The translations under genes were made by a program, and so were the position numbers. The notes below the pieces were generated by a model. It was not told where the DNA came from, made no database searches, and saw only the letters and a list, made by a program, of their open reading frames with translations. From contig JAKPQM010000085.1 in NCBI GenBank assembly GCA_029546925.1, positions 1 through 64,000 of the forward strand: DNA of 64,000 nt. The letters are read 5' to 3'. This DNA is from Actinomycetes bacterium. GTDB lineage: Bacteria; Actinomycetota; Coriobacteriia; Coriobacteriales; Atopobiaceae. This document shows, in pieces, positions 44,874 to 62,931 of this stretch (the stretch's first letter is position 1; each line of letters opens with the position of its first letter).

Positions 44874-46019
44874 GTGGCCAAGAAGGAATGCATAGCGATG
44901 CTGCTTGCCGGCGGACAGGGCAGCAGGCTCGGCGCACTCACCAGCAATGTGGCGAAGCCCGCGGTGTCGTTCGGTGGCAAGTTCCGCATCATCGACTTCG
45001 CGCTCTCCAACTGCGCGAACTCAGACATCAGCACGGTGGGTGTGCTCACGCAGTACCGCCCCTACCTGCTCCACTCCTACATCGGGACCGGCGGTGCCTG
45101 GAATCTCGATGAGCAGGGCGGCGGTGTTTCCATCCTGCCCCCGTACGCCACCCAGACCGGTGGCGCCTGGTATGCCGGTACGGCCGATGCGGTCACGCAG
45201 AACCTCGGCTACATCGAGCAGAACGACCCCGAGTACGTGCTGATCCTCTCGGGAGACCAGCTCTACCGCATGGATTACCGGCTCATGCTCGAGAACCATA
45301 TCCGCCATGAGGCCGACCTCACCATCGCGGTCATGCCCGTGCCCTGGGAGGAGGCCTCGCGCTTCGGCATCATCACCCAGGACGACGATGAGCGCATCCT
45401 GAAGTTCAGCGAGAAGCCCAAGCAGCCCGATAGCAACCTCGCCTCCATGGGCATCTACATCTTCAACACCGCCCTGCTCGTCGAGAAGCTCAAGGAAGAT
45501 GCCATCGACCAGACGTCCACGCACGATTTCGGCAACGACATCATCCCGAAGCTGCTCGCCGAGAACAGGCGCCTCTACACCTACACGTTCGAGGGCTTCT
45601 GGCGCGACGTGGGCACCATCTCGAGCTACCACGAGACGAGCATGGATCTCCTCGGTCCCGAGCCCGCCTTCGACATCTTCTCCAGCAAGTTCCCCATCAT
45701 GAGCAATGCCTCCACGAGGCCGCCCGCCTATATCGGCCGCAACGGCAGCATCGACGACTGCCTCGTGGCCAACGGCTGCCAGATCTTCGGCACCGTGCGC
45801 CACTCCATCGTCTCCACCGACGCCTGCGTCGGCGAGCACGCGGTGGTCGAGGACTCGATCCTGCTGCCCGGTTCCCGCGTCAAAGACGGCGCCCACGTGG
45901 TGCGCGCCATCCTCGGCGAGAACTCCACGGTCGAGGAGAACGTCAACCTGGGCTCCGTGGACATGACCAAAGACACGGCCGTTGTCGGCAACGATGTCGT
46001 TGTGGGAAAGGGTGAGTAG
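44874..46019 (+). CDS. glgC: Glucose-1-phosphate adenylyltransferase, catalytic subunit
   Basis: A 381-residue ADP-glucose pyrophosphorylase. [14 protein letters not shown] is the nucleotide loop, [15 protein letters not shown] and the [21 protein letters not shown] strand give the metal Asp, and [18 protein letters not shown] is typical of the C-terminal part, which then has left-handed beta-helix repeats. I chose GTG 44874, with GAAAGGAG upstream, over GTG 44841. glgD follows after two bases, which suggests a GlgC-GlgD heteromer. Confidence 0.95.
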
Positions 46020-46021
46020 GA

Positions 46022-47116: not shown

Positions 47117-47124
47117 GGGGTCCC

Positions 47125-48612
47125 ATGGCACACGCGACGAGAAGAAAGCTCCGGGTGCTCCTCGCAACCACGGAGGCCGTGCCCTTCGCCAAGACAGGCG
47201 GTCTCGGCGATGTCGTGGGCTCGCTTCCGCAGGCACTCATCGCCGAGGGCGCGAAGTGCGCGGTGATCATGCCCAAATACGCCACCATCCCCCAGGAATA
47301 CCTGGACGGCATGGAGCATCTCGGCGAGATGTACGTGCCGCTGGCATGGCGCAGCGTCTACTGCGGCGTCGAGCATCTCACCCATGACGGGGTGGACTTC
47401 TACTTCCTCGATAACGAGGACTACTTCAAGCGCGACGGCCTCTACGGCTACTTCGACGATGGCGAGCGCTTCGCGTTCTTCTCGAAGGCCATCTGCGAGG
47501 CCATCGAGCTCTTCCCCGAGCTGCAGTGCGATGTCGTGCAGTGCAACGATTGGCAGACGGCGCTCGTGCCGATATTCTTGCGCGAGCTCTATCGCGAGAG
47601 CGATGCCTGCAACAACGTGAAGTGCGTCTTCACGGTGCACAACGTCAAGTTCCAGGGCCAGTTCAGCGATGCGCTGCTCGACGACGTCCTCGGCGTGGGG
47701 CACATCCCCGCCGCCGCCGACCAGCTGCGCTGCGACGATCGCTCCATCAATTACATGAAGGGCGCGCTCTGCTACTCTGACCTGCTCACCACCGTGAGCC
47801 CGAGCTATGCCATCGAGCTGCAGATGCCGTTCTTCGGCGAGGGCCTCGACTACATGTTCCGCCGCCGCGCGTCCATCCTCTCCGGCATCTTGAACGGCAT
47901 CGATCAGGGCATCTGGAATCCCGAGACCGATCCGCTCATCGCCTTCCATTACAGCGCCGGCAACCTCGATGACAAGAAGGCTGCCAAGCGCGCGCTCCAA
48001 GAGGAGTGCGGCCTCTGGGAGGATGAGAACATCCCGCTCATCATCATGATCGGGCGCCTCACCAATCAGAAGGGCCTGAGCCTCGTGCGCTATGCCATGG
48101 GGCGCATCATGGCCGATGGGGCGCAGATGATCGTGCTCGGTACGGGCGACGCCGATCAGGAGGAGGCCTTCCGCTTCTTCGAGAGCTGCTATCCCGGTCA
48201 GATGTGCGCGCGCATCACCTTCGACAATGCGCTCTCCCACCGCATGTATGCAGGCGGCGACATCCTGCTCATGCCCTCCGAATTCGAGCCCTGCGGACTC
48301 TCCCAGATGATCGCCATGCGCTACGGCACGCTGCCCGTGGTCCGCGAGACGGGCGGTCTGCGCGATTCGGTCCAACCCTATAACCGATTCACGGGCGAGG
48401 GCACGGGCTTCTCGTTCGCGAACATGAATGCAGACGAGATGGCGGATTGCCTGCTCGGCGCCTGCCAGCTCTACCGCGACGACAAGGAAGCCTGGCGCGT
48501 CCTCCAGCAGCGCGGCATGACGACCGATTTCTCGTGGAGCCGTGCAGCTGTGGAGTACCTCGACCTCTTCCACTCGCTGCATCCTGAGATCATCCCCTGG
48601 AAGAAGAGGTAG
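47125..48612 (+). CDS. glgA: Glycogen synthase (ADP-glucose type, GT5)
   Basis: A 495-residue GT-B glycosyltransferase extending alpha-1,4-glucan from ADP-glucose. The KTGGLGDVVGSLP loop near the start binds the nucleotide sugar; HNVKFQGQF, NGIDQGIWNPETDPLI, IGRLTNQKGL and PSEFEPCGLSQMIAMRYGTLPVVRETGGL are family motifs. Starts nine bases after glgD with GGGGG upstream; a longer open frame overlaps glgD and is rejected. Confidence 0.96.
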   Translation: MAHATRRKLRVLLATTEAVPFAKTGGLGDVVGSLPQALIAEGAKCAVIMPKYATIPQEYLDGMEHLGEMYVPLAWRSVYCGVEHLTHDGVDFYFLDNEDYFKRDGLYGYFDDGERFAFFSKAICEAIELFPELQCDVVQCNDWQTALVPIFLRELYRESDACNNVKCVFTVHNVKFQGQFSDALLDDVLGVGHIPAAADQLRCDDRSINYMKGALCYSDLLTTVSPSYAIELQMPFFGEGLDYMFRRRASILSGILNGIDQGIWNPETDPLIAFHYSAGNLDDKKAAKRALQEECGLWEDENIPLIIMIGRLTNQKGLSLVRYAMGRIMADGAQMIVLGTGDADQEEAFRFFESCYPGQMCARITFDNALSHRMYAGGDILLMPSEFEPCGLSQMIAMRYGTLPVVRETGGLRDSVQPYNRFTGEGTGFSFANMNADEMADCLLGACQLYRDDKEAWRVLQQRGMTTDFSWSRAAVEYLDLFHSLHPEIIPWKKR

Positions 48613-48616
48613 TTTT

Positions 48617-51600
48617 TTGCACGCACGTCATATAACGTCGGATTCCGACTACAGAACCCCCTTCGGTGCCGTCCAGTTGGGCGGCACCGTCAAGCTGGCC
48701 ATCGATGTCTGGGACGAGGAGCCGCAAGGCGCCGAGCTGCGCCTGTGGATCGAGGGCAACGGCGAGGCCCTCATCCCCATGGAGGCCGAGGCGTGCGGCG
48801 ATGCCACGCGTTTCTCGGTCGATTTCATGCCCAGGTGTGCCGGCATCTTCTGGTATACGTTCAAGATCCGCGCCGCCGACGGCTCCGTCTGGAGCTATGG
48901 GGCACGCGAGGAGCACGCGGTGGGGGAGGGCGCCTTCCATTACGGCGAGACGCCCTCGTTCCAGATCACGGTGTACGTTCCGCGCAAGACCCAGCCCACA
49001 TGGTACCAGCAGGGCGTGGTCTACCAGATCTTCCCCGACCGCTTCTCCCGCGGGGATGACTGGCGCGAACGGGCGGAGACGCTCGAGATGCCGCGTGAGG
49101 GGCCGCAGCGGCGGCTCGTTGAGGATTGGGATACGCCGGTCTCCTACGAGCGTAGCGAGGGGGGCGGGATCGCCGCCTGGGACTTCTACGGCGGCACGCT
49201 CGAGGGCGTCCGCGAGAAGCTCGGCTACCTCGAGGCCCTGGGCATCACGGCGATCTATCTGAACCCGATCTTCGAGGCGGCGAGCAACCATCGCTACGAT
49301 ACGGCCGACTACACGCGCATCGATCCGCTGCTCGGAGACGAGGAGTCCTTCCGCGCCCTCTGCGCAGATGCCGAGGAGCATGGCATCTCCATCATCTTGG
49401 ACGGCGTCTTCAACCATACCGGGCGCGATTCGCGCTACTTCAACGCCTTCGGCAACTACCCCGATGTGGGTGCCGCCCAGAGCCCCGAATCCCCCTATCA
49501 CCTGTGGTACAAGATGGAGGAGGACGGCTCCTACAGCAGCTGGTGGGGCGTGGCCGATCTGCCCGATATCGACGAGTGCAATCCCGATTACCGTGCGTTC
49601 ATCTGCGGCGAGAACGGCATCGTGAGGAGGTGGCTGCGTGCCGGGGCGCGTGGATGGCGCCTCGACGTGGCCGACGAGCTGCCCGATCCCTTCATCGCCG
49701 AGATCAAGGCCGCAGCGCTTGCCGAGCGCGACGACGCCCTCGTCATCGGCGAGGTCTGGGAGGACGCGACCCACAAGGTCGCCTACAACGAGCTGCGCCG
49801 GTACTTCGAGGGCGAGGAGCTCGACGGCGTGATGAACTACCCGTTGCGCGCGGGCATCCTCCGCTACCTTACCGGCGAGGCCACGGCCACCGAGCTTGCC
49901 GATACCCTCGAGCAGCTGATTGAGAACTACCCGCCCGAGGCGCTGGCCAATTGCCTGAACGTGCTCGGCACCCATGACCGTATGCGCCTGTTCACCATCT
50001 TGGGCGGGGCCCCCGATAAGAGCGAGCTCACCGACGAGCAGCGCGCGGGCTACAGGCTCTCCGAGGGCCAGGCGAGCCTTGCGCGCTCACGGCTCTGGCT
50101 GGCGGCGCTCCTGCAGATGTCGCTTCCCGGCGTCCCCTGCATCTACTATGGCGACGAGCTGGGCCTCGAGGGCTACAACGACCCCTACAACCGCGCGCCC
50201 ATGCCCTGGGATGCGCCCGACCCGTATTGCCCGACCATCTACCGCAACGCCATCGGCCTGCGCAAGGCCCTTCCCGTGCTGGTCGACGGCAGCTGCGAGC
50301 CCTTTGCGGCAGGCGATGACGTCTTCGGGTTCTGGCGCCGCAGCGAGGCGGGATGCGTCTGCGTGCTCGTGAATGCGAGCCTCGAGGAGATCCACGAGGT
50401 CGAGCTGCCCATGGCGGCGCCCCAGGTGAGCGATGTCATCTCCGGCCGCGCGGTCGCGGTGGAGGACGGCGTATGCACGGTCACCCTCTGGCCTTTGGGA
50501 TCGAGCGTGCTGCACTTCCATGAGGAGGCGCGCCTGCAGAAGCCGCTCGGGGCGGGCGCGGGCGTGCTGGCCCATATCACGAGCGTGCCCAACGGCGGGC
50601 GCCCCGGCACGCTCGGCGAGCCGGCGATGCGCTTCCTCGAATGGCTGCATAAAGCGGGGGTGCGTTACTGGCAGATCCTGCCGGTGAACCCCACCGATGC
50701 CTACGGGTCGCCATATGCGGGCCTCTCGGCCTTCGCGGGCGATCCCGCGCTCCTGGAGCCCCGCACCGAGAGGGACTACCGCTTGGCCGAGAGGGACATC
50801 GCGCGCGGCTGCCGCTTCGCGGATGAAAACGCCTCTTGGCTCGAGCCCTACGCCCTCTTCCGCGCCCTCAAGGATGCGATGGGGGAGGAGCCGTGGTGGG
50901 AGTGGCCCGAGAAATACCGCAGCTTCGATCGCGCCCTCCTCGGCGAGCGGTCCTTGAGGCTGCGCGTGCGCCGCCACATGGCCGACCAGCTCCTCTTCGA
51001 GAGGGCGTGGGAGCGCATCCGCGCCTACGCCGCCGAGCGCGGCATCGCGATCATCGGCGATATGCCCATGTACGTGGCAGCCGATTCCGCCGATGTCTGG
51101 GCTCATCCCGGCATCTTCGATCCGGCGCTTCTCGCAGGCGCGCCCCCCGATCCGCTCGGCCCCCAAGGCCAGCTCTGGGGCAACCCCACCTTCCGCTGGG
51201 ACGTGCTCGGGGAAAGCGGCTACGCATGGTGGCTCGAGCGCTTCGGACGCATGTTCGCGCTCTACGATTATGTGCGCCTCGACCATTTCGTGGGCTTCTC
51301 GTCCTACTACGGCATACCTGCCGGCAAGACCGCCTTGGAGGGCGCCTGGCGCTTCGGACCGGGCAAGAAGCTCTTCACGGCCGCATACGACCGCTTCGGT
51401 CCGCTGCCGCTTCTGGCGGAGGATCTCGGCACCATCACCCCTGCCGTGCGCGCCCTGCTCGCCGAGGTGGGGGCGCCGGGCATGAGCGTGGCGCAGTTCG
51501 CGGACGAGGACGTGCTCGAGGGCTTCCACCCTGCGCCGGATACCGTCGCGTTCACGGGAACGCACGACACGACGACGATCCTTGCGTGGTGCGGGGATCG

Positions 51601-51832
51601 CGCCGCATCTGCCGAGGAGGCGCGTGAGCTCGCCGCCGAGCTCACGGAACGCGTGATGGGTGCCAAGGCCGATGTCGCCATCCTGCCGCTTCAGGACGTG
51701 CTGCTCCTCGGCGCCGAGAGCCGCATGAACGTGCCGGGCGTCGCCGAGGGCAACTGGAGCTGGCGTGCCGATGCCCAAGCGGTCATGGCCGCGGGCGATC
51801 GCCTCGCCAAGCTCGTCGGCATGCACGGATAG
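48617..51832 (+). CDS. Alpha-amylase-family glycosidase fused to 4-alpha-glucanotransferase (GH13-GH77)
   Basis: A 1071-residue two-enzyme protein. N-terminal part: beta-sandwich module (1-120), then a GH13 barrel with DGVFNHTG, GWRLDVADE (nucleophile Asp350), VIGEVWED (Glu379) and GTHDRM (Asp454). From about 640 a GH77 amylomaltase follows: DMPMYVAADSADVWAHP, VRLDHFVGF (Asp889), LLAEDLGTITP (Glu935), GTHDTTTILAW. It would shorten and rearrange maltodextrins released from glycogen. The likely start is TTG 48617 with GAAGAGG eight bases upstream; no nearby ATG is in frame. Ends the glycogen operon. Confidence 0.9.
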   Translation: MHARHITSDSDYRTPFGAVQLGGTVKLAIDVWDEEPQGAELRLWIEGNGEALIPMEAEACGDATRFSVDFMPRCAGIFWYTFKIRAADGSVWSYGAREEHAVGEGAFHYGETPSFQITVYVPRKTQPTWYQQGVVYQIFPDRFSRGDDWRERAETLEMPREGPQRRLVEDWDTPVSYERSEGGGIAAWDFYGGTLEGVREKLGYLEALGITAIYLNPIFEAASNHRYDTADYTRIDPLLGDEESFRALCADAEEHGISIILDGVFNHTGRDSRYFNAFGNYPDVGAAQSPESPYHLWYKMEEDGSYSSWWGVADLPDIDECNPDYRAFICGENGIVRRWLRAGARGWRLDVADELPDPFIAEIKAAALAERDDALVIGEVWEDATHKVAYNELRRYFEGEELDGVMNYPLRAGILRYLTGEATATELADTLEQLIENYPPEALANCLNVLGTHDRMRLFTILGGAPDKSELTDEQRAGYRLSEGQASLARSRLWLAALLQMSLPGVPCIYYGDELGLEGYNDPYNRAPMPWDAPDPYCPTIYRNAIGLRKALPVLVDGSCEPFAAGDDVFGFWRRSEAGCVCVLVNASLEEIHEVELPMAAPQVSDVISGRAVAVEDGVCTVTLWPLGSSVLHFHEEARLQKPLGAGAGVLAHITSVPNGGRPGTLGEPAMRFLEWLHKAGVRYWQILPVNPTDAYGSPYAGLSAFAGDPALLEPRTERDYRLAERDIARGCRFADENASWLEPYALFRALKDAMGEEPWWEWPEKYRSFDRALLGERSLRLRVRRHMADQLLFERAWERIRAYAAERGIAIIGDMPMYVAADSADVWAHPGIFDPALLAGAPPDPLGPQGQLWGNPTFRWDVLGESGYAWWLERFGRMFALYDYVRLDHFVGFSSYYGIPAGKTALEGAWRFGPGKKLFTAAYDRFGPLPLLAEDLGTITPAVRALLAEVGAPGMSVAQFADEDVLEGFHPAPDTVAFTGTHDTTTILAWCGDRAASAEEARELAAELTERVMGAKADVAILPLQDVLLLGAESRMNVPGVAEGNWSWRADAQAVMAAGDRLAKLVGMHG

Positions 51833-51974: not shown

Positions 51975-54773
51975 ATGCTCGCTATTCCGTACAACGTCAT
52001 CGTCACGCCGCTCATCTACCTCATCGAGCTGGTCTACGCGGTGCTCAACCGCTTCTTCGTGAATCCGGGCTTCTCCATCATCGGCGTGAGCCTGGCCGTG
52101 AACTTCCTGGCGCTCCCGCTCTACCGGCGCGCCGACCTCATCCAAGAGGAGGAGCGCGACAAGCAGGCGTCCATGGCGCGCTGGGTCGATCACATCAAGG
52201 CGCATTTCAAGGGCGACGAGCAATACATGATGCTCTCGACCTACTATCGCCAGCAGGATTACAAGCCCACCCAAGCGCTCAGGAGCTCGTTGTCGCTGCT
52301 GCTCCAGATCCCCTTCTTCATGGCAGCCTACAGCTATCTCTCCAACCTCGGCGATCTCGAGGGGACGCGCTTCCTGTTCATCGACGATCTCTCGCAACCC
52401 GACCAGCTGATCTCGATAGGCGCCTTCGCGCTCAACGTCCTGCCCATCGCCATGACGCTCATCAACTGCCTCTCGACATCCATCTACACCAAGGGCCTGC
52501 CCCTGCGCGATAAGATCCAGGCGTATGGTTTGGCGGCGGCCTTCCTCGTGCTGCTCTATCAGAGTCCGGCGGGCCTCGTCTTCTACTGGACCTGCAACCA
52601 GATCTTCTCGCTGGCCAAGAACGTCTTCCTCAAGGTGCTCGAGAATCCGCGCAGGGTATTCGCCCTGCTCGTGCAGGCCCTGTTCGTGGTCGTGGGGATA
52701 TATCTGTTCCATGCGGGCCGCCTCGGCTCGCCGCGCCGCATGCTGGGCGCGTGCGCGTTCGTGGCGCTGGTGGAGGCCTTCCTCTTCCTTCCGTCTGTCT
52801 TGGAGGCCCGTAAGGGGGAAGATGGTGCGGAACAGCCCGGGGGACCTTCCCCGACGCGCTCGTTTCTGCTCGCCGCGGTGCTCATCACCGTCATCCTCGG
52901 CGTGCTCATCCCGTCCGCGCTCATCAGCGCCTCGCCCAAGGAGTTCATCGACGAGTATGCGGTGGCGAGCCCGCTGCGCCATATCGTCACCACGAGCTCC
53001 ATCATCGGCGGCCTCGTGATCTTCTGGGGCGGCGTCTTCTTCTACCTCGGCAACCTCAAAACCCGCCGCCTCATCGCGTGCGCCTACTGGCTCCTTGCGG
53101 GTGCCTGCCTCGTCGACTTCCTCTTCTTCGGGCAGCATCTCGGCACCATCACCAAGGATCTGGTATTCGAGGCCTATCCCTCCTACCCGCTCAGGGAGAA
53201 GCTCCTGAACCTCGCCGCGCTTGCCGGGCTCGCTGCGGCCATGCTCGTCCTGTGGCGCAGGAAGCGCGATCTCGTCAATGCGGCGCTCGGCATCCTCATC
53301 ATCGTGGCCGCAGCCGTGGCGGTGCCCAACCTCGTCTCCATCCAGACCGCAACCGCCGAGATGGAGGCGCACAGCGCCCAGATCGGCCAGGGCACGTCTG
53401 CGGGCCATGCCGACGGCGCGACTGCGCTCTTCGATGCCGATGGCAGCATCATCCCCCTCATCCACCTCTCGCGGGAGGGGAGGAATGTGGTGGTGCTCTT
53501 CATGGACCGCGCCATGGGCACGTACATGCCCTATATCCTGGCCGAGCGCCCCGAGCTCCGGGAGCAGTTCGACGGATTCGTCTACTATCCCAACACGCTC
53601 TCCTTCGGCTCCTGCACCGTCTATGGCGGCCCCCCGCTCTACGGCGGCTACGAGTACACGCCCACCGAGATGAACAAGCGCGATACCGAGCTGCTTTCCG
53701 AGAAGCACAACGAGGCCATCAAGGTCATGCCCACGCTCTTCACCGAGGCGGGCTTCTCGGCGGTGCAGTTCGATCCGCCGCTCGTCTCCTACACGTATGG
53801 CACGCGCGATTTCAGCATGTTCGATGCCATCGACGGCTTCTCCACCTATCGGGTCGAAGGTGCCTACAGCGCCTACTACCTCGAGGGCGGGCGCAGCCGC
53901 TCTGCGGAGAACCTCACGCGCAGCTTCGTGTTCTACAGCCTCTTCAAGGCTGCTCCCGTTGTGCTCCAGACGACCGTCTACGACCAGGGCAACTACTACT
54001 CGACGCTCGTCAGCCACGCCACCAACAGCGATTTCATCAACAACTACTCGGTGCTTGCCCTGTTGGGCGAGCTGACCTCGATCGAGAGCGGCGGCAGCGA
54101 CAACTTCGTGATCCTGCACAACGATGCGACGCACTCGCCGCAGATGCTCCAACTGCCCGATTACGAGTTCTCGGAGTTCGTCAACAACGAGGGCCTCGAG
54201 GATTACGGCCGCTTCACGATCGATGGCCGCACCATCGACATGGGCAACCCCACCTATCTGGCCAGCTACCACTCCAGCATGGCCACGTTCATCCAGCTGG
54301 GGACGTGGTTCGATCTCCTGCGCGAGAGCGGGGCCTACGACAACACGCGCATCATCATCGTCTCGGATCACGGCTATCCGTACGCTCAATTCCAAGATCT
54401 CCTCATCGACGGCGATCAGGATATCTGGAACTTCATCCGCATGAACGTCAACAGCGTCAACCCGCTGCTCATGGTCAAGGATTTCGACGCGCACGGCTTC
54501 GAGACCTCAGGCGAATTCATGACCAATGCCGATACGCCCCTCATCGCCATGGAGGGCATCATCGAGGATCCGGTGAACCCCTATACGGGCAAGCCCATGA
54601 CCGACGAGGAGAAACATGCCCACGATCAGCTCATCACCACCTCGTGGCACCACAACGTCGGCGACAACCACCACGGCACGGTGTTCGAGACCGGTGATGG
54701 CTACTGGTACAGCGTGCACGACGACATCTTCGATCCCGATAACTGGACGCTCGTCCAAGGTCCCACGGAGTAG
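51975..54773 (+). CDS. YidC/Oxa1-like membrane domain fused to sulfatase-fold (LtaS-like) domain
   Basis: A 932-residue membrane protein. Residues about 1-215 resemble YidC/Oxa1 insertases (SIIGVSLAVNFLALPLYRRA, LLLQIPFFMAAYSYL, SPAGLVFYWTCNQIFSLAKN). About seven more membrane helices follow to residue 460. The extracellular part is an alkaline phosphatase/sulfatase fold as in lipoteichoic acid synthase: VVVLFMDRAMG (Asp511), likely nucleophile region SFGSCTVYGGPPLYGG (Thr548), IIIVSDHGYP (Asp798, His799) and HHNVGDNHHG. It probably transfers a phospho-group to or from a surface polymer; what the YidC part does is unknown. The ATG at 51975 has a weak site (GCAGG). First gene of the surface-polymer cluster. 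Confidence 0.8.
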   Translation: MLAIPYNVIVTPLIYLIELVYAVLNRFFVNPGFSIIGVSLAVNFLALPLYRRADLIQEEERDKQASMARWVDHIKAHFKGDEQYMMLSTYYRQQDYKPTQALRSSLSLLLQIPFFMAAYSYLSNLGDLEGTRFLFIDDLSQPDQLISIGAFALNVLPIAMTLINCLSTSIYTKGLPLRDKIQAYGLAAAFLVLLYQSPAGLVFYWTCNQIFSLAKNVFLKVLENPRRVFALLVQALFVVVGIYLFHAGRLGSPRRMLGACAFVALVEAFLFLPSVLEARKGEDGAEQPGGPSPTRSFLLAAVLITVILGVLIPSALISASPKEFIDEYAVASPLRHIVTTSSIIGGLVIFWGGVFFYLGNLKTRRLIACAYWLLAGACLVDFLFFGQHLGTITKDLVFEAYPSYPLREKLLNLAALAGLAAAMLVLWRRKRDLVNAALGILIIVAAAVAVPNLVSIQTATAEMEAHSAQIGQGTSAGHADGATALFDADGSIIPLIHLSREGRNVVVLFMDRAMGTYMPYILAERPELREQFDGFVYYPNTLSFGSCTVYGGPPLYGGYEYTPTEMNKRDTELLSEKHNEAIKVMPTLFTEAGFSAVQFDPPLVSYTYGTRDFSMFDAIDGFSTYRVEGAYSAYYLEGGRSRSAENLTRSFVFYSLFKAAPVVLQTTVYDQGNYYSTLVSHATNSDFINNYSVLALLGELTSIESGGSDNFVILHNDATHSPQMLQLPDYEFSEFVNNEGLEDYGRFTIDGRTIDMGNPTYLASYHSSMATFIQLGTWFDLLRESGAYDNTRIIIVSDHGYPYAQFQDLLIDGDQDIWNFIRMNVNSVNPLLMVKDFDAHGFETSGEFMTNADTPLIAMEGIIEDPVNPYTGKPMTDEEKHAHDQLITTSWHHNVGDNHHGTVFETGDGYWYSVHDDIFDPDNWTLVQGPTE

Positions 54774-54783
54774 GTGAGCGACC

Positions 54784-56031
54784 ATGATATCCGCCCACCT
54801 TTCCCACTACATCGACCCCGGCACGGGCAGCATGCTCTTCACGCTGCTCATCGGTTTGGTGACCACGGGCTTCTTCTTCCTCCGCAAGGTGCTCATCAAC
54901 GTCCGCGTCGTGCTGTCGGGGGGCACTGCCAAGCCGGTGGACGGGGGGAAGCTCCCGTACGTGATCTTTGCGGATCACAAGCGCTACTGGAACATCTTCA
55001 AGCCTATCTGCGATGAGTTCGAGCGGCGCGGCGTGGAGCTCCACTACTGGACGGCATCGCCCGACGACCCCGCGCTCGATGAGGGCTACGAGCACGTGGT
55101 GCGCGAGTTCATCGGCGAGGGCAACAAGGCCTTCGCACGCCTCAACATGATGAGCGCGAACGTGGTGCTCTCGACCACGCCCGGCCTCGACGTGCTCCAA
55201 TGGAAGCGCTCCAAGGATGCGGACTGCTACGTGCATGTCCTCCACGCCCTGGGAACCGCCGCCGGCTACCGCATGTTCGGCCTCGACTACTACGATGCGG
55301 TCCTGCTCTCATGCGATCTCCAGGCCGATGAGATCCGCACGCTCGAGGAGCTCCGCAAGCTTCCCCCCAAGGAGCTCGAGATCGTCGGCTGCACCTATCT
55401 CGACATCATGGCCGAGCGCGCCAAAACCCTCGCGCCTGCTCGCAACGAGCCTCCCTGCGTTTTGCTCGCCCCATCGTGGGGCGAGAGCGCCATCCTCTCC
55501 GTCTATGGCAAGGAGATCATCGACGCCCTGCTCGATACCGGCTACGAGATCGTCATCCGCCCGCACCCGCAGTCCATGACTGCGGAGAAGAAGCTGCTCG
55601 ATTCCCTCATGGCCGCATACCCCGACGGCGAGGCCCTTAACTGGAACTTCGACAACGACAACTTCGATATCCTCAATCGCGCCGACATCATGATCAGCGA
55701 CTTCTCGGGCGTCGTTCTAGACTACGCCCTCATCTTCGACAAGCCCGTCATCTCCACGCAGAGCACCTTGGATGAGGCGGTCTACGATTCCGCATGGCTC
55801 GACGGGCCGCTCTGGACGTCCGCCATCTATTCCTCGCTCGGCCCCGAGCTCTCGAAGGACCAGTTCCCGAGGATGCGCGAGGTCATCGACGAGGTCGTCG
55901 CAGACACCACGCTGGCAGAGGGCAGGGATCGTGCCCGCCGGCAGACATGGGCCTTCCAGGGCGAGAGCGTTGCGCGCACGGTTGACTATCTCATCGAGAA
56001 GCACGACGAGCTGGTGAATCCATCCGAATAG
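54784..56031 (+). CDS. CDP-glycerol glycerophosphotransferase-family (TagF-like) enzyme
   Basis: A 415-residue protein. The N-terminus has IDPGTGSMLFTLLIGLVTT and one membrane helix, a leader often seen on these proteins, then a GT-B-like glycerophosphotransferase domain with IRPHPQS, NADIMISDFSGVVLDYAL-like core (NRADIMISDFSGVV) and FDKPVIS. Such enzymes polymerise or prime poly(glycerol phosphate) or related teichoic acids at the inner membrane face from CDP-activated donors. It starts ten bases after the fusion gene. Confidence 0.88.
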   Translation: MISAHLSHYIDPGTGSMLFTLLIGLVTTGFFFLRKVLINVRVVLSGGTAKPVDGGKLPYVIFADHKRYWNIFKPICDEFERRGVELHYWTASPDDPALDEGYEHVVREFIGEGNKAFARLNMMSANVVLSTTPGLDVLQWKRSKDADCYVHVLHALGTAAGYRMFGLDYYDAVLLSCDLQADEIRTLEELRKLPPKELEIVGCTYLDIMAERAKTLAPARNEPPCVLLAPSWGESAILSVYGKEIIDALLDTGYEIVIRPHPQSMTAEKKLLDSLMAAYPDGEALNWNFDNDNFDILNRADIMISDFSGVVLDYALIFDKPVISTQSTLDEAVYDSAWLDGPLWTSAIYSSLGPELSKDQFPRMREVIDEVVADTTLAEGRDRARRQTWAFQGESVARTVDYLIEKHDELVNPSE

Positions 56032-56049: not shown

Positions 56050-57867
56050 ATGCAGGCTATCATCCTCGCGGCGGGCATGGGCAAGCGGCTTAAGACGCTT
56101 ACCGCCGACAACACCAAATGCATGATCGAGGTCAATGGCGTGACCCTCATCGAGCGTGTCCTTTCGCAGCTCGATGAGCTGAGCCTCGATCGCATCGTCA
56201 TCGTCGACGGCTACCAGTCGCAGAAGCTACGCGACTATGTTGCCACGCTCGATGTGGAGACGCCCATCGAATGGCGCCTCAACCCGTTCTTCGACAAGAC
56301 CAACAACATCTACTCGCTCTCGCTCGCCATGGGCGACCTCGAGGAGGACGATACCCTGCTGCTCGAGAGCGACATCATCTTCGAGGAGGGGATCTTGCGC
56401 GAGCTCGTCGAGGATCCCCGCCCCACGCTCGCCCTCGTGGACAAGTACGAGAGCTGGATGGACGGCACCGTCGTCAAGGTGGACGAGAACGACGAGATCG
56501 TCGCCTTCGTTCCCGGCAAGAAGTTCAAGTTCCAAGATATCGGCGAGTACTACAAGACCGTGAACATCTACAAGTTCTCGAAGGAGTTCTCGCGCACCCA
56601 CTACGTTCCTTTCCTCGAGGCCTACGTCAAGGCGCTCGGCAACAACGAGTATTACGAGCAGGTGCTCCGCGTCATCATGCACCTCGACGACTCCGAGCTC
56701 AAGGCCAAGCGGCTCAGCGGCCAGCTCTGGTACGAGATCGACGATCTCCAGGATCTCGATATCGCCGAGTCCATGTTCTCGCCCGACGAAGACGAGCGGC
56801 TCAGCATGCTCGAGGGCCGCTATGGCGGCTACTGGCGCTATCCCGGACTCATCGACTTCTGCTATCTCGTGAACCCCTACTTCCCGCCCCAGCGCCTGCT
56901 CGACGAGATGCGTGCGAGCTTCGATGCGCTGGTCACCCAGTACCCTTCGGGTATGCGCGTGAACGCGCTGCTGGCCGCCAAGACCTTCGGCGTGGGGCAG
57001 GACCGCATCGTGGTGGGCAACGGCGCCGCAGAGCTCATCAAGGCCCTCCTCGAGCGCTTCGCGGGCAACGTCGGCTTCATCCGCCCCACCTTCGAGGAAT
57101 ATCCCAACCGCTATCCCGAGGAGCGCTCGGTCGTCTTCGTCCCCACGCGCGAGGACTTCTCCTATACCGCCGACGAGCTCACGGCCTTCTTCGCCGGCAA
57201 GGGCCTCGAGGCCCTCGTGCTCATCAATCCCGATAACCCCACCGGCTCCTACATGCCCAAAGCCGACGTCGCGCGTCTGGCCGCATGGTGCGAGGAGCAG
57301 GGCATCCGCCTCGTGTACGACGAGTCGTTCTCCGATTTCTCCGACGAGCCCGCCAATACCTTCCTCGACGACGGGCTGCTCGGACGCTATCCGCACCTCG
57401 TGGTGGTGAAGAGCATCTCCAAGTCCTACGGTGTGCCGGGCGTGCGCCTCGGCGTCGTCGCCTCCGCCGATGCCGCGCTCATCGATGCGATCAAGCGCGC
57501 GGTGTCGATCTGGAACATCAACTCCTTCGGCGAGTTCTTCCTCCAGATCGCCGAGAAGTACCAAGGCGATTACCGAAGCGCCCTCGTCGGCCTGCGCGAG
57601 GCCCGCGCCGCGCTGGCCGATGACCTAGCTCAGATCGAGGGGGTGCGTCCGCTGCCCTCCCAGGCGAACTACCTCATGGTCGAGCTGACGGACCCCGTGG
57701 GATCGCGCGAGCTCGCGCGGAGGCTCTTGACGAGCCATCGGATCCTCATCAAGGACCTCTCCGGGAAGATCAGGTGCGGTGAGCGGCAGTTCGTGCGCGT
57801 GGCCGTGCGCGGCGCTGCGGATAACGCCCGTTTGGTCGCGGCCCTGAGATCTGTGCTGTGTCGATAG
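56050..57867 (+). CDS. Bifunctional LicC-like cytidylyltransferase / class I-II PLP enzyme
   Basis: A 605-residue fusion. Residues 1-240 are a sugar-nucleotidyltransferase fold of the phosphocholine cytidylyltransferase type (IILAAGMGKRLKTLTADNTK, LLLESDIIFEEGIL). Residues about 250-605 are a fold-type I PLP enzyme close to HisC/CobD (INPDNPTGSYMP, YDESFSDF, PLP lysine 458 in VVKSISKSYGVPGVRLG). CobD relatives in Campylobacter capsule loci decarboxylate serine phosphate to ethanolamine phosphate. A fusion with a cytidylyltransferase could make CDP-ethanolamine from serine phosphate in one protein (inference). An aminotransferase forming another CDP-linked amine is the alternative. Downstream of the TagF-like gene by 18 bases. 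Confidence 0.82.
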   Translation: MQAIILAAGMGKRLKTLTADNTKCMIEVNGVTLIERVLSQLDELSLDRIVIVDGYQSQKLRDYVATLDVETPIEWRLNPFFDKTNNIYSLSLAMGDLEEDDTLLLESDIIFEEGILRELVEDPRPTLALVDKYESWMDGTVVKVDENDEIVAFVPGKKFKFQDIGEYYKTVNIYKFSKEFSRTHYVPFLEAYVKALGNNEYYEQVLRVIMHLDDSELKAKRLSGQLWYEIDDLQDLDIAESMFSPDEDERLSMLEGRYGGYWRYPGLIDFCYLVNPYFPPQRLLDEMRASFDALVTQYPSGMRVNALLAAKTFGVGQDRIVVGNGAAELIKALLERFAGNVGFIRPTFEEYPNRYPEERSVVFVPTREDFSYTADELTAFFAGKGLEALVLINPDNPTGSYMPKADVARLAAWCEEQGIRLVYDESFSDFSDEPANTFLDDGLLGRYPHLVVVKSISKSYGVPGVRLGVVASADAALIDAIKRAVSIWNINSFGEFFLQIAEKYQGDYRSALVGLREARAALADDLAQIEGVRPLPSQANYLMVELTDPVGSRELARRLLTSHRILIKDLSGKIRCGERQFVRVAVRGAADNARLVAALRSVLCR

Positions 57868-57884: not shown

Positions 57885-58964
57885 ATGGAAATCGCTGTCA
57901 TCGGCGGGGGGAATATAGGCACGCTCATCGCAGCGGAGTTCGCCGCGTGTGGACATGCCGTGCGTCTGCGTGCATCGGAGCCGCAGATATTCTCCAAGAC
58001 GATAGGCGTGTTCGATACCGACGATGGGCTGATCCTGCAGGGAACGCCTTCTTGCATCACCGACGACCTAGCCGTTGCCGTCGACGGTGCGGAGATGATC
58101 TGCATAACCTACCCGACGTTCATGTTCCGTGATCTCGGGGAGAAGCTGGCGGCTTGCATCGAAGCCGGTCAGACGATCTGCGTGATGCCCGGTGCGGCCG
58201 CCGAATTCTTCTTCGGCGCCTGCATCGATAAGGGGGCTGTCCTTCTCGGCCTCCAGCGCGTCCACTGCGTGGCGCGTTTGAAGGAGCGCGGGAAGAGCGT
58301 GTACATGCTCGGACGCAAGGCGGAGCTCCAGCTTGCATCGGTGCCCGTCCGGATCGCGCAGGATCGCGCTCCTGTAGTCGCCGAGCTCTTCGAGATGCCC
58401 GTCCGGGTCCTGCCGAACTACCTTGTCGAGACGCTCACCCCGTCGAACCCGATCCTGCACACCACGCGCCTTTGCTCGATGTTCTCATCGTGGGAACCCG
58501 GCATCGTGTATCCCGCCAATATCCTGTTCTACGAGAGCTGGGATGATGCCAGCTCTGAGCTGCTGATCGCCTGCGATGACGAGCTGCAGCAGGTCTGCCG
58601 CGCTCTTGAGAGGATGCTCGATATCGATTTGTCGGAGGTCCGGTCGCTCAAAGCGCATTACGAAAGTCCCGATGCTGCGGCAATGACCGCGAAGATAGCG
58701 CATATCCCCGCTTTCAAGGGTTTGACCTCCCCCATGAGGCAGGTCGCACCCGGGCAGTGGACGCCTGATTTCACTTCAAGGTATTTCCGAGCCGACTTCC
58801 CCTACGGTCTCAAGATAATCAAGGATTTCGCCGCGTTCGCTGGGATCGGGACGCCGCATATCGACCATGTGTGGGAATGGTATCTCGGCGTTTCCGCTGC
58901 CCGTGAGTTCTTCGAGGATATCCCTGCGGATATCGAGGGGCTCAAGGCGCTCTACCATCTGTAA
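57885..58964 (+). CDS. NAD/NADP octopine/nopaline dehydrogenase family protein
   Basis: A 359-residue opine dehydrogenase-type protein. The N-terminal Rossmann domain begins IAVIGGGNIGTLIAAEFAA; the C-terminal octopine dehydrogenase domain has SNPILHTTRLCSMFS, with the probable catalytic His192. Opine enzymes reductively join an amino acid and a 2-oxo acid. In a polymer cluster this could supply an N-(carboxyalkyl) amino acid as a decoration, or make a metallophore-like compound. The ATG at 57885 has GGGGGG upstream; a GTG at 57858 would overlap the previous gene. Confidence 0.8.
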   Translation: MEIAVIGGGNIGTLIAAEFAACGHAVRLRASEPQIFSKTIGVFDTDDGLILQGTPSCITDDLAVAVDGAEMICITYPTFMFRDLGEKLAACIEAGQTICVMPGAAAEFFFGACIDKGAVLLGLQRVHCVARLKERGKSVYMLGRKAELQLASVPVRIAQDRAPVVAELFEMPVRVLPNYLVETLTPSNPILHTTRLCSMFSSWEPGIVYPANILFYESWDDASSELLIACDDELQQVCRALERMLDIDLSEVRSLKAHYESPDAAAMTAKIAHIPAFKGLTSPMRQVAPGQWTPDFTSRYFRADFPYGLKIIKDFAAFAGIGTPHIDHVWEWYLGVSAAREFFEDIPADIEGLKALYHL

Positions 58965-58994
58965 CCAAGTCCGCACTATCTCTGCGAGGCGCAC

Positions 58995-60560
58995 ATGAAC
59001 GTCTACGAAGGTTCCGTTTTAACCGTCAACGCGCAGGATGAGGTCTTCCGCTATCTCGTGGAGGATCGGGGGCGCATCGTATTCGTGGGAGACGAGCTCC
59101 CGCCCGCATACGCCGGCCAGCCCGTCATCAGCTTGGGCACCCGCGCGCTCGCGCCCAGCTTCGTGGACACCCACGAGCACTTCGCGAGCTTCGCCACGTT
59201 CAACGCAGGCCTCAACGTCATGGATGCGCGCTCCAACAGGGAGATCATGCAGATGGCCTCCGATTTCGCGAAGCGCTCCAAGGCCAAGATCCTCATCGCC
59301 TTCGGGGCCTCGCCCTATTCGGTGGCCGAGGGGCGCCTGCTCTCCCGCGAGGAGCTCGACGCGGCCTGCCCCGGCAAGCCGTTCATGATGGGCAAGTACG
59401 ACGGCCATGCCTGCGTGGTCAACAGCAAGCTCCTCGAGCTCGTGGACGATACGGTCAGGGACCTCCGCGGCTACCATCCCGATACGGGCGAGATGAACCA
59501 GGAGGCGTTCTTCGCCGTCTCGGACTTCATCACCGCATCGCTCTCCATCCCCGAGCTCATCTCCAATATGCTGCATGCCATGGACTACCTCGCGTCCAAG
59601 GGCATCGGCATGGTCCACACGGTGTCGGGCATCGGCTTTGCCGGCGACCTCGACATCACGCTCGAGAAGATCGTGGGCAGGGGAGCCCAGCATGGCTTCC
59701 AGATGCGCGTGTTCCCGCAGTCCCTGGACGTCACGGTCGCGACCTCCCGCAAGCTCCCGCGCATCGGCGGCTGCTTCGCCTGCGCCCTCGACGGCTGCTT
59801 CGGCTCCGCCGATGCCGCCCTCATCGAGCCCTATGCCGCAAGCGGGGGCTGCGGCGTGCTCTACTACACCGACGAGCAGATCATCGACTTCTGCAAGCAG
59901 GCCGACGGCCTCGGCCTCCAGATCGAGATGCACGCCATCGGCGATGCGGCCTTCGCGCAGGCCGCCCGCTGCCTCAAGGCCGCGCTCGACGCCACGGCGC
60001 GCGCGGATCACCGCCACGGCATCATCCACGGCTGCCTGCCCACCGCAGAGGGCATCGAGATCTGCGCCGAGCACGGCATCCAGATGCCCATGCAGACCTC
60101 CTTCATCGATTGGCCGCAGGAACCCGACAGCTACCTCGAGTCGCTGCTCGGCCCCGCGCGGGCCGCCCGCCTCAATCCCATCCGCACCCTCTGGGACAGG
60201 GGCATCGTCATCTCCGCAGGCTCCGATGCGCCGTGCACCGACCCCGATCCCATCATGTGGATGGACAAGGCGGTCAACAACCCCAACGAGGACGAGCGCC
60301 TCACGCGCCGGGAGGCCCTGCGCATGTGCACCTACAACGGGGCGTGGACCAGCTTCGACGAGCGCGAGCGCGGCTCGCTCGAGGCGGGCAAGATCGCCGA
60401 CATGGTGGTGCTCTCCGCCAATCCCTACGAGGTTCCCGCCGCCGATCTCGGCGCCGTCGAGGTCGAGCGCCTGATCCTATCGGGCAAGCCCTACCGGCCC
60501 CAGTCAAAGAACATCGCCGCCGCCCTCATCCGCGGCCTTGCAAGCAAGGCGAAGATCTAG
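58995..60560 (+). CDS. YtcJ-like metal-dependent amidohydrolase
   Basis: A 521-residue amidohydrolase_3 family protein. Seen: LAPSFVDTHEHFASFA (HxH metal site, with Glu between the histidines), EMHAIGDAAFAQAA, DHRHGIIHGCLP and SAGSDAPCTDPDPIMWMDKA (metal Asp). It is a diverged paralogue of the protein at 21393. It ends one base before the LicC-LicA fusion, so it belongs to the polymer operon, where an amidohydrolase is unexpected. It may free an amine precursor such as choline or ethanolamine from an amide (speculative). Function unknown. Confidence 0.8.
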   Translation: MNVYEGSVLTVNAQDEVFRYLVEDRGRIVFVGDELPPAYAGQPVISLGTRALAPSFVDTHEHFASFATFNAGLNVMDARSNREIMQMASDFAKRSKAKILIAFGASPYSVAEGRLLSREELDAACPGKPFMMGKYDGHACVVNSKLLELVDDTVRDLRGYHPDTGEMNQEAFFAVSDFITASLSIPELISNMLHAMDYLASKGIGMVHTVSGIGFAGDLDITLEKIVGRGAQHGFQMRVFPQSLDVTVATSRKLPRIGGCFACALDGCFGSADAALIEPYAASGGCGVLYYTDEQIIDFCKQADGLGLQIEMHAIGDAAFAQAARCLKAALDATARADHRHGIIHGCLPTAEGIEICAEHGIQMPMQTSFIDWPQEPDSYLESLLGPARAARLNPIRTLWDRGIVISAGSDAPCTDPDPIMWMDKAVNNPNEDERLTRREALRMCTYNGAWTSFDERERGSLEAGKIADMVVLSANPYEVPAADLGAVEVERLILSGKPYRPQSKNIAAALIRGLASKAKI

Positions 60561-62144
60561 ATGGCGAAACGCGCGATCATCCTTGCGGCGGGGGCGGGCA
60601 AGCGCATGGCCCCCCTCTCCTACGAGCTGCCCAAAGCCCTTTTGACCGTGCGCGGCGAGGTGCTCATCGAGCGGCTCATCCGCCAGCTCCATGAGGCGGG
60701 CGCAGACGATATCGTCCTCGTCGTGGGCTATATGAAGGAGTCGCTCTTCTACCTCGAGGATGCCTTCGGCGCGCGCATCCGCATCAACGCAGACTATGCC
60801 GATACGGGCAGCGCGGCATCCCTGTTCCTCGCACGTGATATGCTTCCCGGTGCCTGGGTGTGCTCGTCCGACCAGTATTTTCCCGAGAATCCCTTCGTGG
60901 ATGCCGAAGACGGCTCGCTCGCCACGCTCATCGAGCGCGAGGGTTCCAAACGTGAGCCTCGGGCCGAGGTCGATGGCGACGGGATGATCCGCGCGCTCTC
61001 AACGCAGATCCCGAGCGGCCTCATCTTCCAAGGCCCCGCCTTCTTCTCGGTAGAGGACGGCGCGGCGTTCGCGGGCATCCTCGAGCGCGAGAGCCATGCG
61101 CCCCTTTTTGCCTCCCTGCTCTGGGACCAGATCTTTGTCCAGCACGCAGACGAGATCAGCATGCGCGCGCGGGTGCTTCCCGAAGATGCCGTGCGAGAGT
61201 TCAAGAGCTTCAACGATCTTGTCGCCTACGACCGCGATTTCGTGGAGAACGTCGATCTTGCCATCTTGGATAACATCTGCGCCACGCTGGCATGCGAGCG
61301 GCGCGATATCACGGATGTCACCCCCATCAAGCAGGGCCTCACCAACCTCTCGTTCCGCTTCGACTGCAAGGGCACGGCGTACGTGTACCGCCATCCCGGT
61401 GCGGGGACCGATGAGATCATCAACCGCGCCGCCGAGGCGCATGCCCTGCATATCGCTCGCGAGCTGGGGCTCGACGAGACCTTCGTGTACGAGGACCCCG
61501 ATGAGGGATGGAAGCTCTCGCGCTTCATCGATGGCTGCGAGCCGTTCGACTACGGCAAGCGCGATCACGTGAAGCGCGCGCTCTCGCTTGCGCGGCGCCT
61601 GCACGAGAGCGGGGAGATCTCTCCCTGGTCGTTCGACTACCGAGCCGAGGCCGAGAAGATCGCCGGCATCCTGCGCGCCATGCACTATCCGCTCCCCCGC
61701 GATTTCTCCGAGCTCGCGAAGCGGATGGGAAGGCTCGCGGATCACCTTGCCGCCGATGGGGGAGAGCCGGTGCTCTGCCACAATGACTTCTACGGCCCCA
61801 ACCTGCTCGTGCACGGCGATGATATGTGGCTCATCGACTGGGAATACTCCGCCATGGGCGATTACGCGTGCGATCTCGGCAACTTCGTCGCGCAGGGTTC
61901 CAACTACCCGCCCGATGAGACCCTCGAGGTCATCGACCTCTACTATGGGCGGAAGGCTACCGCCGCCGAGCAGCGCCACTGCCTCGCGGCGGTTGCGCTC
62001 GTGGGCTGGTACTGGTATGTATGGGCGATCTACAAGGGGGCGAAGGGCAGCCCGGTGGGCGAGTGGCTCTACGTCTGGTACCGCGCCGCGCAAACCTACT
62101 GCGATGCCGCCATGCCCCTGTACGAGGAGGATATGCATGGGTGA
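60561..62144 (+). CDS. Bifunctional phosphocholine cytidylyltransferase / choline kinase (LicC-LicA fusion)
   Basis: A 527-residue fusion. Residues 1-235 are a LicC-type nucleotidyltransferase (IILAAGAGKRMAPLSYELPK, NADYADTGSAASLFLAR). Residues about 240-527 are a choline/ethanolamine kinase-type fold (LTNLSFRFDCKGTAYVYRHPG, catalytic LCHNDFYGPNLLV, metal LIDWEYSAMGDYACDLG). Together they would phosphorylate choline and activate it as CDP-choline for transfer to a teichoic acid or other surface glycan. The start is directly after the amidohydrolase stop. No choline transporter is seen in the window. Confidence 0.88.
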   Translation: MAKRAIILAAGAGKRMAPLSYELPKALLTVRGEVLIERLIRQLHEAGADDIVLVVGYMKESLFYLEDAFGARIRINADYADTGSAASLFLARDMLPGAWVCSSDQYFPENPFVDAEDGSLATLIEREGSKREPRAEVDGDGMIRALSTQIPSGLIFQGPAFFSVEDGAAFAGILERESHAPLFASLLWDQIFVQHADEISMRARVLPEDAVREFKSFNDLVAYDRDFVENVDLAILDNICATLACERRDITDVTPIKQGLTNLSFRFDCKGTAYVYRHPGAGTDEIINRAAEAHALHIARELGLDETFVYEDPDEGWKLSRFIDGCEPFDYGKRDHVKRALSLARRLHESGEISPWSFDYRAEAEKIAGILRAMHYPLPRDFSELAKRMGRLADHLAADGGEPVLCHNDFYGPNLLVHGDDMWLIDWEYSAMGDYACDLGNFVAQGSNYPPDETLEVIDLYYGRKATAAEQRHCLAAVALVGWYWYVWAIYKGAKGSPVGEWLYVWYRAAQTYCDAAMPLYEEDMHG

Positions 62145-62931
62145 GCTGACGCGCGCGGAATTCGACCGCTTGGCTGCGCGGGTGCATGAGGGTGCCGCTA
62201 CCGCCGAAGAGCTCGATCTTCTCGAGCCGTATCGCGCGAGGCGCGCCGTCATGCTCGCATCAGGCTTCGGTGCGCGGATGATGCCCGTCACGAAGGCCTG
62301 CCCCAAGCCGCTGGTGAGGATCCACGGCGTGCGCATCATCGATTCGCTCCTCGACGCTCTTGTCGACGCTGGCATCGAGGAGATCTATCTCGTGCGCGGC
62401 TACCTTGCCGAGCGTTTCGACGAGCTGCTCGGGAAGTATCCTTCGCTCCGCTTCATCGACAACCCCGACTATGCCTCGACGAACAACATCTCGTCGGCCG
62501 TGCTCGCTGCGGCCCATTTCGAGAACGCCTACGTATTCGAGTCCGACCTCTTCCTCAAAAACCCCGCGCTCATCACGCGCTACCAGTACCAGTCGAACTA
62601 TCTGGGAGTTCCCGTGGAGCATACCGACGACTGGTGTTTTACGACCGAGGGCGGCGTCATCCGCGATCTCAAGAAGGGCGGGGACTGCTGCCATCATATG
62701 TACGGGATCTCCTACTGGAGCGCCGAGGACGGCCGCCGGCTCGCCGATGATCTGCCCCGCGCGTTCGAAGACGGGCCGACCAAGCAGCGCTTCTGGGACG
62801 ACGTGCCCTGCGTCATATGCCGCGAGAACTACGAGGTCGTCATCCGTGCGTGCAGCTTCGACGACATCGATGAGATCGATTCCTTCGAGGAGCTGTGCGC
62901 AATCGACGAGAGCTATAGGGGCTGGGAATAG
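62137..62931 (+). CDS. LicC-type phosphocholine cytidylyltransferase-like protein
   Basis: A 264-residue nucleotidyltransferase with a 30-residue N-terminal extension before the nucleotide loop (AVMLASGFGARMMPVTK; PKPLVRIHGVRIIDSLLDAL; ASTNNISSAVLAA; VFESDLFLKNP). It is the third LicC-type domain in the cluster. It overlaps the LicC-LicA gene by eight bases, and GGAGG precedes the ATG at 62137. Three cytidylyltransferase domains suggest at least two different CDP-activated decorations, or one paralogue with a changed substrate. Last gene of the cluster. Confidence 0.85.
   Translation: MGELTRAEFDRLAARVHEGAATAEELDLLEPYRARRAVMLASGFGARMMPVTKACPKPLVRIHGVRIIDSLLDALVDAGIEEIYLVRGYLAERFDELLGKYPSLRFIDNPDYASTNNISSAVLAAAHFENAYVFESDLFLKNPALITRYQYQSNYLGVPVEHTDDWCFTTEGGVIRDLKKGGDCCHHMYGISYWSAEDGRRLADDLPRAFEDGPTKQRFWDDVPCVICRENYEVVIRACSFDDIDEIDSFEELCAIDESYRGWE

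Follow-up and report, generated by a model that had tools for sequence, protein, structure and literature searches.

A YidC/Oxa1-fold domain fused to a sulfatase-fold enzyme and linked to surface-polymer genes in an Atopobiaceae genome

Enzymes such as LtaS and EptA transfer phospho-groups from phospholipids. The YidC/Oxa1 proteins are membrane insertases, and a positively charged residue in their groove is described in the abstract of PMC8920935 as strictly conserved across all homologues; according to PMC10491306, Oxa1 proteins, E. coli YidC among them, also scramble lipids in liposomes. Here we describe a gene in which both kinds of module are joined in one reading frame. It lies at positions 51975-54773 of a 64,000-nucleotide stretch (the window, i.e. 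the whole stretch that was analysed) of contig JAKPQM010000085.1 from a member of the Atopobiaceae (Coriobacteriia; assembly GCA_029546925.1). We refer to this gene and its homologues as the type A fusion.

PMC6697681 places lic/Pnt surface tailoring in similar hosts (Atopobium, Olsenella and Treponema), and its main text mentions neither YidC, insertase nor sulfatase. By titles and abstract beginnings, no description of a fusion of YidC with a sulfatase or with a Glyphos_transf domain was found in searches of an open-licence paper library.

The fusion gene and its parts

The first-pass annotation of the window had read a single YidC plus sulfatase-fold frame at this site, and both its domain assignment and its coordinates proved correct. 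The frame opens with an ATG at 51975 and continues uninterrupted for 932 codons up to the stop at 54773. Its product begins with a YidC/Oxa1 fold (residues 1-225); a bundle of helices follows (226-495), and the C-terminal portion (496-932) is a domain of the alkaline-phosphatase superfamily, i.e. with a sulfatase fold. Fifty-one homologues from other assemblies align with it from end to end; only matches spanning the query were taken, non-spanning ones being excluded, which together with the window protein gives the 52 family members used below. From these 52 sequences AlphaFold2 (AF2) modelled the whole protein with a mean predicted local distance difference test score (pLDDT) of 85.3. The single open frame, the end-to-end homologues and the frame lengths in the surveys described below rule out a frameshift or a chimeric assembly behind the fusion. 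The two outcomes by which the first-pass annotation would have been refuted, a YidC part without a profile match and a missed frameshift, were both looked for and neither was found. The fusion of a YidC fold to a sulfatase-fold enzyme is thus confirmed as genuine. Its features are as follows.

51975..54773, + strand: YidC-like/sulfatase-fold fusion gene, type A (932 amino acids (aa); Pfam, AF2 and alignment)
51975..52649, + strand: YidC/Oxa1-fold domain, residues 1-225, five-helix core and cytosolic helical hairpin (PF02096, AF2, match to solved YidC)
52101..52103, + strand: codon of N43, which aligns with R366 of E. coli YidC, the groove arginine of insertases (profile alignment)
52650..53459, + strand: second transmembrane (TM) helix bundle, residues 226-495, fast evolving (26% mean pairwise identity; AF2; TM prediction)
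53460..54770, + strand: external alkaline-phosphatase-superfamily (sulfatase/phosphotransferase) domain, residues 496-932 (PF00884; Z 18-21)
53505..53507, + strand: D511, likely metal ligand (invariant, 52/52)
53616..53618, + strand: T548, candidate catalytic nucleophile (invariant, 52/52)
54132..54134, + strand: H720 (invariant, 52/52)
54366..54371, + strand: D798-H799 of the SDHG metal-binding motif (invariant, 52/52)

Pfam assigns residues 32-219 to 60KD_IMP (YidC, PF02096; E 2.2e-20), and this match is present in all 52 family members. Modelled alone, residues 1-225 reach a pLDDT of 85.0, and the structure search aligned them with E. coli YidC (6al2; Z 18.1, 3.2 Å, 199 residues) and B. halodurans YidC2 (3wo7; Z 17.7, 207 residues), the best row beyond the YidC/Oxa1 group standing at Z 6.3. 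The NCBIfam model yidC_oxa1_cterm (TIGR03592) scores 79.3 bits on the fusion protein, below its curated cut-off of 84.3.

The groove arginine, which had been singled out for checking, is not conserved. Among 102 non-identical type A rows (including at least one truncated copy of the window gene, L006) the column of residue 43 holds N in 36, S in 32, T in 31, Q in 2 and a gap in 1, and neither Arg nor Lys occurs in any of the 101 residue-bearing rows. The canonical YidCs of this genome and its relatives carry the arginine in 4/4 cases. In the YidC type fused to a Glyphos_transf domain (type B, see below) the position is Lys in 18 rows from 15 distinct genes, the architecture of two of which (L068, L077) is unsettled; two further rows of the B group are A-type. 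A plain canonical YidC was considered for the window protein and rejected: the Arg-bearing canonical copy is a separate gene at another site of the genome, beside what we take, from the translations, to be jag- and rsmG-like open reading frames (ORFs).

The loss of the groove charge in type A, as read from the alignment, breaks the rule described for the family. By itself it does not prove a loss of insertase activity, because E. coli R366N and R366A are, according to a passage of PMC8920935, still functional provided that an aromatic or hydrophilic residue occupies position 517, and W205, the matching residue of type A, is invariant. This tolerance, together with the complete YidC fold, gives some ground for the view that the YidC part still inserts or folds the polytopic enzyme to which it is fused, or a partner protein encoded in the cluster. 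We consider this unlikely. In the AF2 model the last core helix (199-220) runs straight into the next helix (225-246), so that a free C-terminal tail is absent, and the LtaS-type enzyme of this genome (C122; 710 aa, LtaS 4uoo at E 8.8e-14) has no YidC domain in its chain. Moreover, in type B it is the cytosolic enzyme that carries the YidC domain, the exported one being encoded separately, so an exported client joined covalently to YidC is not a general feature.

The three parts of the fusion differ in their constraint. Mean pairwise identity over the 52 sequences is 56.5% in the YidC part, 26% in the TM bundle and 38.8% in the external domain, and 30 of the 49 invariant columns fall within residues 1-225. 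By these sequence measures the YidC part is the most strongly constrained segment of the protein.

On the external side, Pfam Sulfatase (PF00884) matches residues 503-805 at E 1.5e-5, with 24.9 bits against a cut-off of 25 (27.1 bits in the genome scan), and 38 of the 52 family members match at E 0.001. The structure search with residues 501-932 returned enzymes of the alkaline-phosphatase superfamily (Z 18-21, about 260-340 residues). The neighbours are nearly tied: a phosphonate monoester hydrolase (4uph, Z 20.6), choline sulfatase (6g5z, 20.6), EptC (6a82, 18.7), LtaP (4uop, 18.7), LtaS (2w5q, 18.3) and MCR-1 (5lrm, 18.2). PbgA (6xlp) aligned with residues 289-932 at Z 19.6, and the root-mean-square deviation of 18.6 indicates that its helix bundle is placed differently from that of the fusion. 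By analogy with the superfamily, D511, D798 and H799 are likely metal ligands and T548 is the candidate nucleophile, as in LtaS and EptA. With the five expected catalytic positions invariant, the external domain looks active.

The earlier label 'LtaS-like' stands at the level of the superfamily, as LtaS is among the tied structural neighbours, but not in the sense of a close LtaS relative, the sequence match being short and distant. The family profile aligns with LtaS 4uoo over 72 positions only (E 7.2e-5), and the profile comparison with the LtaS-type protein of this genome covers merely 28 columns round the DHG motif (probability 6.4%), in which T548 could not be placed on LtaS.

The phosphonate monoester hydrolases and choline sulfatase among the top neighbours (Z 20-21) would also fit a hydrolytic enzyme (a phosphodiesterase or a phosphonate/choline-ester hydrolase) by which surface substituents are trimmed or recycled, and the nearby cytidylyltransferases could salvage the released product. 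Such a role seems improbable. Sulfatases use a Cys or Ser nucleophile, in contrast to the Thr of LtaS and EptA, and Thr occupies this position in 52/52 family members; the Glyphos_transf linkage and the all-in-one fusion presented below indicate synthesis as well.

Family spread, partner gene and alternative fusions

A scan of an 84,980-species contig set gave 45 loci in Coriobacteriia, in Lachnospiraceae and other Clostridia, and in Treponema and other spirochaetes; these taxon labels are provisional, many of the genomes being metagenome bins. Two loci (L035, L049), each with the fusion and its Glyphos_transf partner, come from metagenome-assembled genomes labelled Myxococcales and Proteobacteria, which reflects either wide transfer or mislabelled bins.

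Surveys with the YidC-domain profile (A2; E <= 1e-40) were positive in 50 of 247 Spirochaetota genomes and in 12 of 391 genomes of the class to which a Lachnospiraceae member belongs. An open frame of at least 840 aa surrounds the YidC match in 96/107 and 27/27 cases, respectively; short or interrupted type A frames are also present in the spirochaete survey. Among 60 relatives of the window genome there are nine matches at E < 1e-90 in eight genomes, in frames of 863-1165 aa in eight cases and of 462 aa in one (G047). The remaining YidC matches of these relatives (canonical and B-type) have E above 1e-17, save for a 53-residue fragment at a contig start in G005 (E 1.2e-23, 742-aa frame). These frame lengths show that the type A YidC domain is fused nearly always.

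Multiple copies per genome are common, and Treponema ruminis (L024, G060) has six at E < 1e-90. At several loci (L024, L026, L038, L045, L014) more than one fusion is present, some head to tail and some beside a nucleotidyltransferase gene of their own, suggesting a different substrate for each copy. The YidC domain of the window is 55% identical to the spirochaete copies (13 rows), whereas for canonical YidCs the identity between Treponema and the window's relatives is only 29% (28 pairs). Judged from this contrast in the alignments, the gene may have spread horizontally as a cassette, besides being under constraint.

The fusion is followed, ten bases past its stop, by a second gene of the putative system:

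54784..56031, + strand: partner gene, 415 aa, one N-terminal TM helix, YIDPGTG motif and Glyphos_transf (TagF-like) domain (PF04464, TM prediction)

PF04464 matches the partner at E 3.4e-8 (33.3 bits against a cut-off of 22.1), and YIDPGTG, RPHPQ (the RxHP motif), H154, D306 and S308 are invariant (28/28). For neighbour counts, stop-to-stop ORFs were used at 42 loci, that is, the 45 minus L008, L048 and L051, which have no A gene longer than 700 aa. A Glyphos_transf partner lies within 5 kb of the fusion at 29 of the 42 loci, and in 28 of those the nearest one is on the same strand. In spirochaetes the partner profile has 58 matches in 49 genomes of 1-5 Mb, and we estimate that well under one locus would have a partner this close by chance. 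The two genes also occur together: of the 247 Spirochaetota genomes, 47 have both, 3 the fusion only, 2 the partner only and 195 neither (Fisher p 2e-44, kinship ignored). At the partner-less spirochaete loci, a scan of 10 of 21 neighbour proteins, from 7 loci, gave two glycosyltransferases (L023, L042) and no recurring substitute. A nucleotidyltransferase gene is found within 5 kb at 29/42 loci. The survey of polymer genes round the homologues, which had been proposed at the outset, thus gave Glyphos_transf and nucleotidyltransferase genes beside the fusion and its homologues alike.

The same modules are joined in other ways as well. The window's own genome encodes, at L052:8660-12778 (contig C25), a 1372-aa protein with a Lys-type YidC domain (23-209), a middle part alignable with the Glyphos_transf partner (about 270-630), TM helices and a sulfatase domain (1151-1293). 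Pfam Glyphos_transf was not called in this protein, and in its L010 relative it scored below cut-off (16.7 against 22.1). Long three-module frames are present in five of the 60 relatives (G000, G002, G003, G018 and G004, the last matched in two pieces). In eight others (G009, G010, G015, G021, G025, G027, G033, G051) a YidC-Glyphos_transf protein of 650-735 aa is followed by at least one gene matching the TM-sulfatase part; stops lie inside some of these frames (G009, G015, G021), and G023 and G048 are ambiguous. Pfam recognised both domains over their cut-offs in 3/3 YidC-Glyphos_transf proteins tested, and Sulfatase in 1/2 of the genes that follow. A plasmid tblastn search with the three-module protein returned 14 records, all with canonical-YidC or partial matches only and below 60% identity.

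The first-pass annotation remarked that no need for a link between insertase and teichoic acid enzymes is known; these data answer the remark, since the same three modules are joined in three alternative fusions. The linkage and co-occurrence of the partner and the alternative fusions indicate that the YidC, Glyphos_transf and sulfatase-fold modules probably form one envelope phospho-polymer system. Phylogeny gives a less uniform picture of their origin. The 64-row tree (28 of the 102 A rows, chosen at random, and the window) places B-type YidC beside canonical YidCs (95/49), whereas the reduced 47-row tree (13 A rows and the window; the odd or duplicate rows L136, L077 and L006 dropped) joins A and B, weakly (63/49). 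As the trees disagree, the A-type and B/C-type domains may derive from either one or two recruitments.

The recurrence bears on two further explanations. According to one, the YidC part is a second general-purpose insertase, fused by happenstance and functionally unlinked to its neighbour. Apart from the Pfam homology to YidC and the matches of NCBIfam YidC models, which stay below their cut-offs, little speaks for it, and we regard it as very improbable: the fusion recurs in three lineages, three alternative fusions involve the same partners, the groove charge is lost and the genome has its separate canonical YidC.

According to the other, which is the main rival of a role of the domain in lipid movement, the YidC-like domain moves nothing, and its hairpin F78-Y96 docks the Glyphos_transf enzyme beside the external phosphotransferase, thereby coupling the inside and outside steps. 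Six of the domain's 30 invariant residues (F78, G80, D81, M85, Y91 and Y96) indeed lie in the hairpin, the partner is genetically linked, and the direct YidC-Glyphos_transf fusions would need no dock in trans. However, the invariant polar and aromatic residues of the membrane helices (T161, N164, Y195, Y204, W205 and N208) exceed what a dock requires, and some genomes have several fusions per partner gene. We regard docking as a serious but doubtful explanation.

Downstream of the partner the cluster continues with five genes:

56050..57867, + strand: nucleotidyltransferase fused to a CobD-like pyridoxal phosphate (PLP) enzyme (PDB 6oux, E 2.8e-43, on the C-terminal part; 6pd1 (PntC) and 1jyk (LicC) on the N-terminus)
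57888..58964, + strand: octopine/opine-dehydrogenase-like gene (PF02317, E 3.6e-28)
58995..60560, + strand: amidohydrolase (PF07969, E 5.1e-55)
60561..62144, + strand: LicC-like cytidylyltransferase fused to a choline-kinase-like domain (1jyk LicC, E 2e-26; 3dxq choline/ethanolamine kinase, E 8.7e-31)
62128..62931, + strand: third nucleotidyltransferase, start codon unsettled (PF00483/PF12804)

Phosphoenolpyruvate (PEP) mutase was not found in this genome, while 11 of 14 control genomes were positive, and a phosphonate (aminoethylphosphonate, AEP) pathway for the cluster is disfavoured on this account. For the same reason the product of 56050-57867 probably makes a cytidine diphosphate (CDP)-amino-alcohol, which could be of the ethanolamine or aminopropanol type and derive from a phospho-amino-acid. 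The product of 60561-62144 would probably supply CDP-choline. The opine-dehydrogenase-like and amidohydrolase genes (57888-60560) lie inside this polymer cluster. Upstream of the fusion, at 42366-51832 of the window, is what we take from the translations to be a glycogen-metabolism-like run (phosphorylase, GlgC/GlgD-like and glycogen synthase-like genes), including a 1096-aa frame that is presumably amylase and glucanotransferase-like.

A possible mechanism

Based on our observations, we tentatively suggest, at somewhat less than even confidence, that the fusion acts as a transferase spanning the membrane, in a system that builds a teichoic-acid-like phospho-polymer of the envelope or attaches phospho-substituents at the surface, and that its YidC fold serves as a lipid conduit. 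Inside the cell, the cytidylyltransferases would turn choline or an amino-alcohol into CDP-derivatives, and the TM-anchored Glyphos_transf enzyme would load a lipid or lipid-linked chain from such a CDP-alcohol. The YidC-like domain, no longer a general insertase, would offer a neutral hydrophilic groove (N/S/T43, invariant W205, N164 and N208), through which the loaded lipid or its head group could cross from the inner to the outer leaflet. There the external domain, with T548 as the nucleophile and D511, D798 and H799 as the metal site, might move the phospho-group onto the surface polymer. The arrangement of the modules follows the same order, with CDP-alcohol supply and Glyphos_transf inside, the phosphotransferase outside, and the YidC fold between them, joined to either or both.

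Several points weigh against this proposal. Thirteen of the 42 loci have no partner inside 5 kb, several of these loci ending near the gene, and the linkage to nucleotidyltransferases is the weaker one, that family being common. The Glyphos-fused relatives retain a positive groove residue, Lys, and the R366N tolerance of E. coli YidC, with the invariant W205, means that the loss of Arg alone would be compatible with insertase function. Finally, a LicD gene elsewhere in the genome (L150, contig C57, E 1.1e-27) is a possible real user of CDP-choline, so that the donor of the Glyphos_transf partner may be another compound.

On balance, the data (folds of the parts, conservation, loss of the groove charge, intact catalytic positions, Glyphos_transf linkage and co-occurrence, and alternative fusions) favour a part for the fusion in a CDP-alcohol/Glyphos_transf surface-polymer system; the substrate, the action of the external domain as a transferase rather than a hydrolase, and lipid transport by the YidC domain are what we infer. 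It is possible, although we hold this with still less confidence than the lipid-conduit proposal, that the Oxa1/YidC fold was turned, once or twice, into a dedicated flippase or scramblase for phospho-lipid or lipid-linked polymer intermediates and became a covalent part of surface-polymer synthases. Such a module could stand in for exporters of the ATP-binding cassette (TarGH) or Wzx type, and the missing groove charge would then be the sign that it has changed over to lipid head groups in place of protein tails.

To our knowledge, whether lipid scrambling is a native job of any Oxa1-family protein is open. A YidC fold that lacks the family's hallmark, is the most constrained part of its protein and has lipid/polymer enzymes as partners would make native scrambling testable in one purified protein. 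If true, the proposal would add an undescribed route of envelope-polymer assembly in anaerobic Actinobacteria, Clostridia and spirochaetes. The automatic label 'membrane protein insertase YidC' may mislead for type A genes.

Comparison with known systems

Each module of the system is of a known kind, while their combination and the Arg-less YidC branch appear undescribed as far as the open-licence library was searched. In the lic/Pnt (PntC) systems of surface tailoring, cytidylyltransferase-kinase and cytidylyltransferase-PLP fusions occur, and such fusions are neighbours here as well; with no PEP mutase found in this genome, the present cluster is probably not a phosphonate one. The partner gene and the C-terminal parts of the YidC-Glyphos relatives (3/3 tested) belong to the TagF/TagB-type CDP-glycerol glycerophosphotransferases (PF04464), but the partner is a short single-TM form with YIDPGTG, and CDP-choline or a CDP-amino-alcohol, not CDP-glycerol, may serve as its donor.

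LtaS/LtaP and EptA/EptC/MCR-1 share with the fusion a helix bundle, an external alkaline-phosphatase-superfamily domain and the positions of the Thr and the metal ligands, whereas the window protein adds a YidC domain at its front and resembles them only distantly in sequence. With the YidC/Oxa1/Alb3 insertases (E. coli YidC, B. halodurans YidC2) it has in common the five-helix core and the cytosolic hairpin; it differs from them in lacking the groove Arg, in its fusion to an enzyme and linkage to polymer genes, and in its score below the TIGR03592 cut-off. That this pairing of domains is found again in gut bacteria and spirochaetes of distant kinship suggests that an insertase fold has been recruited to surface-polymer building.

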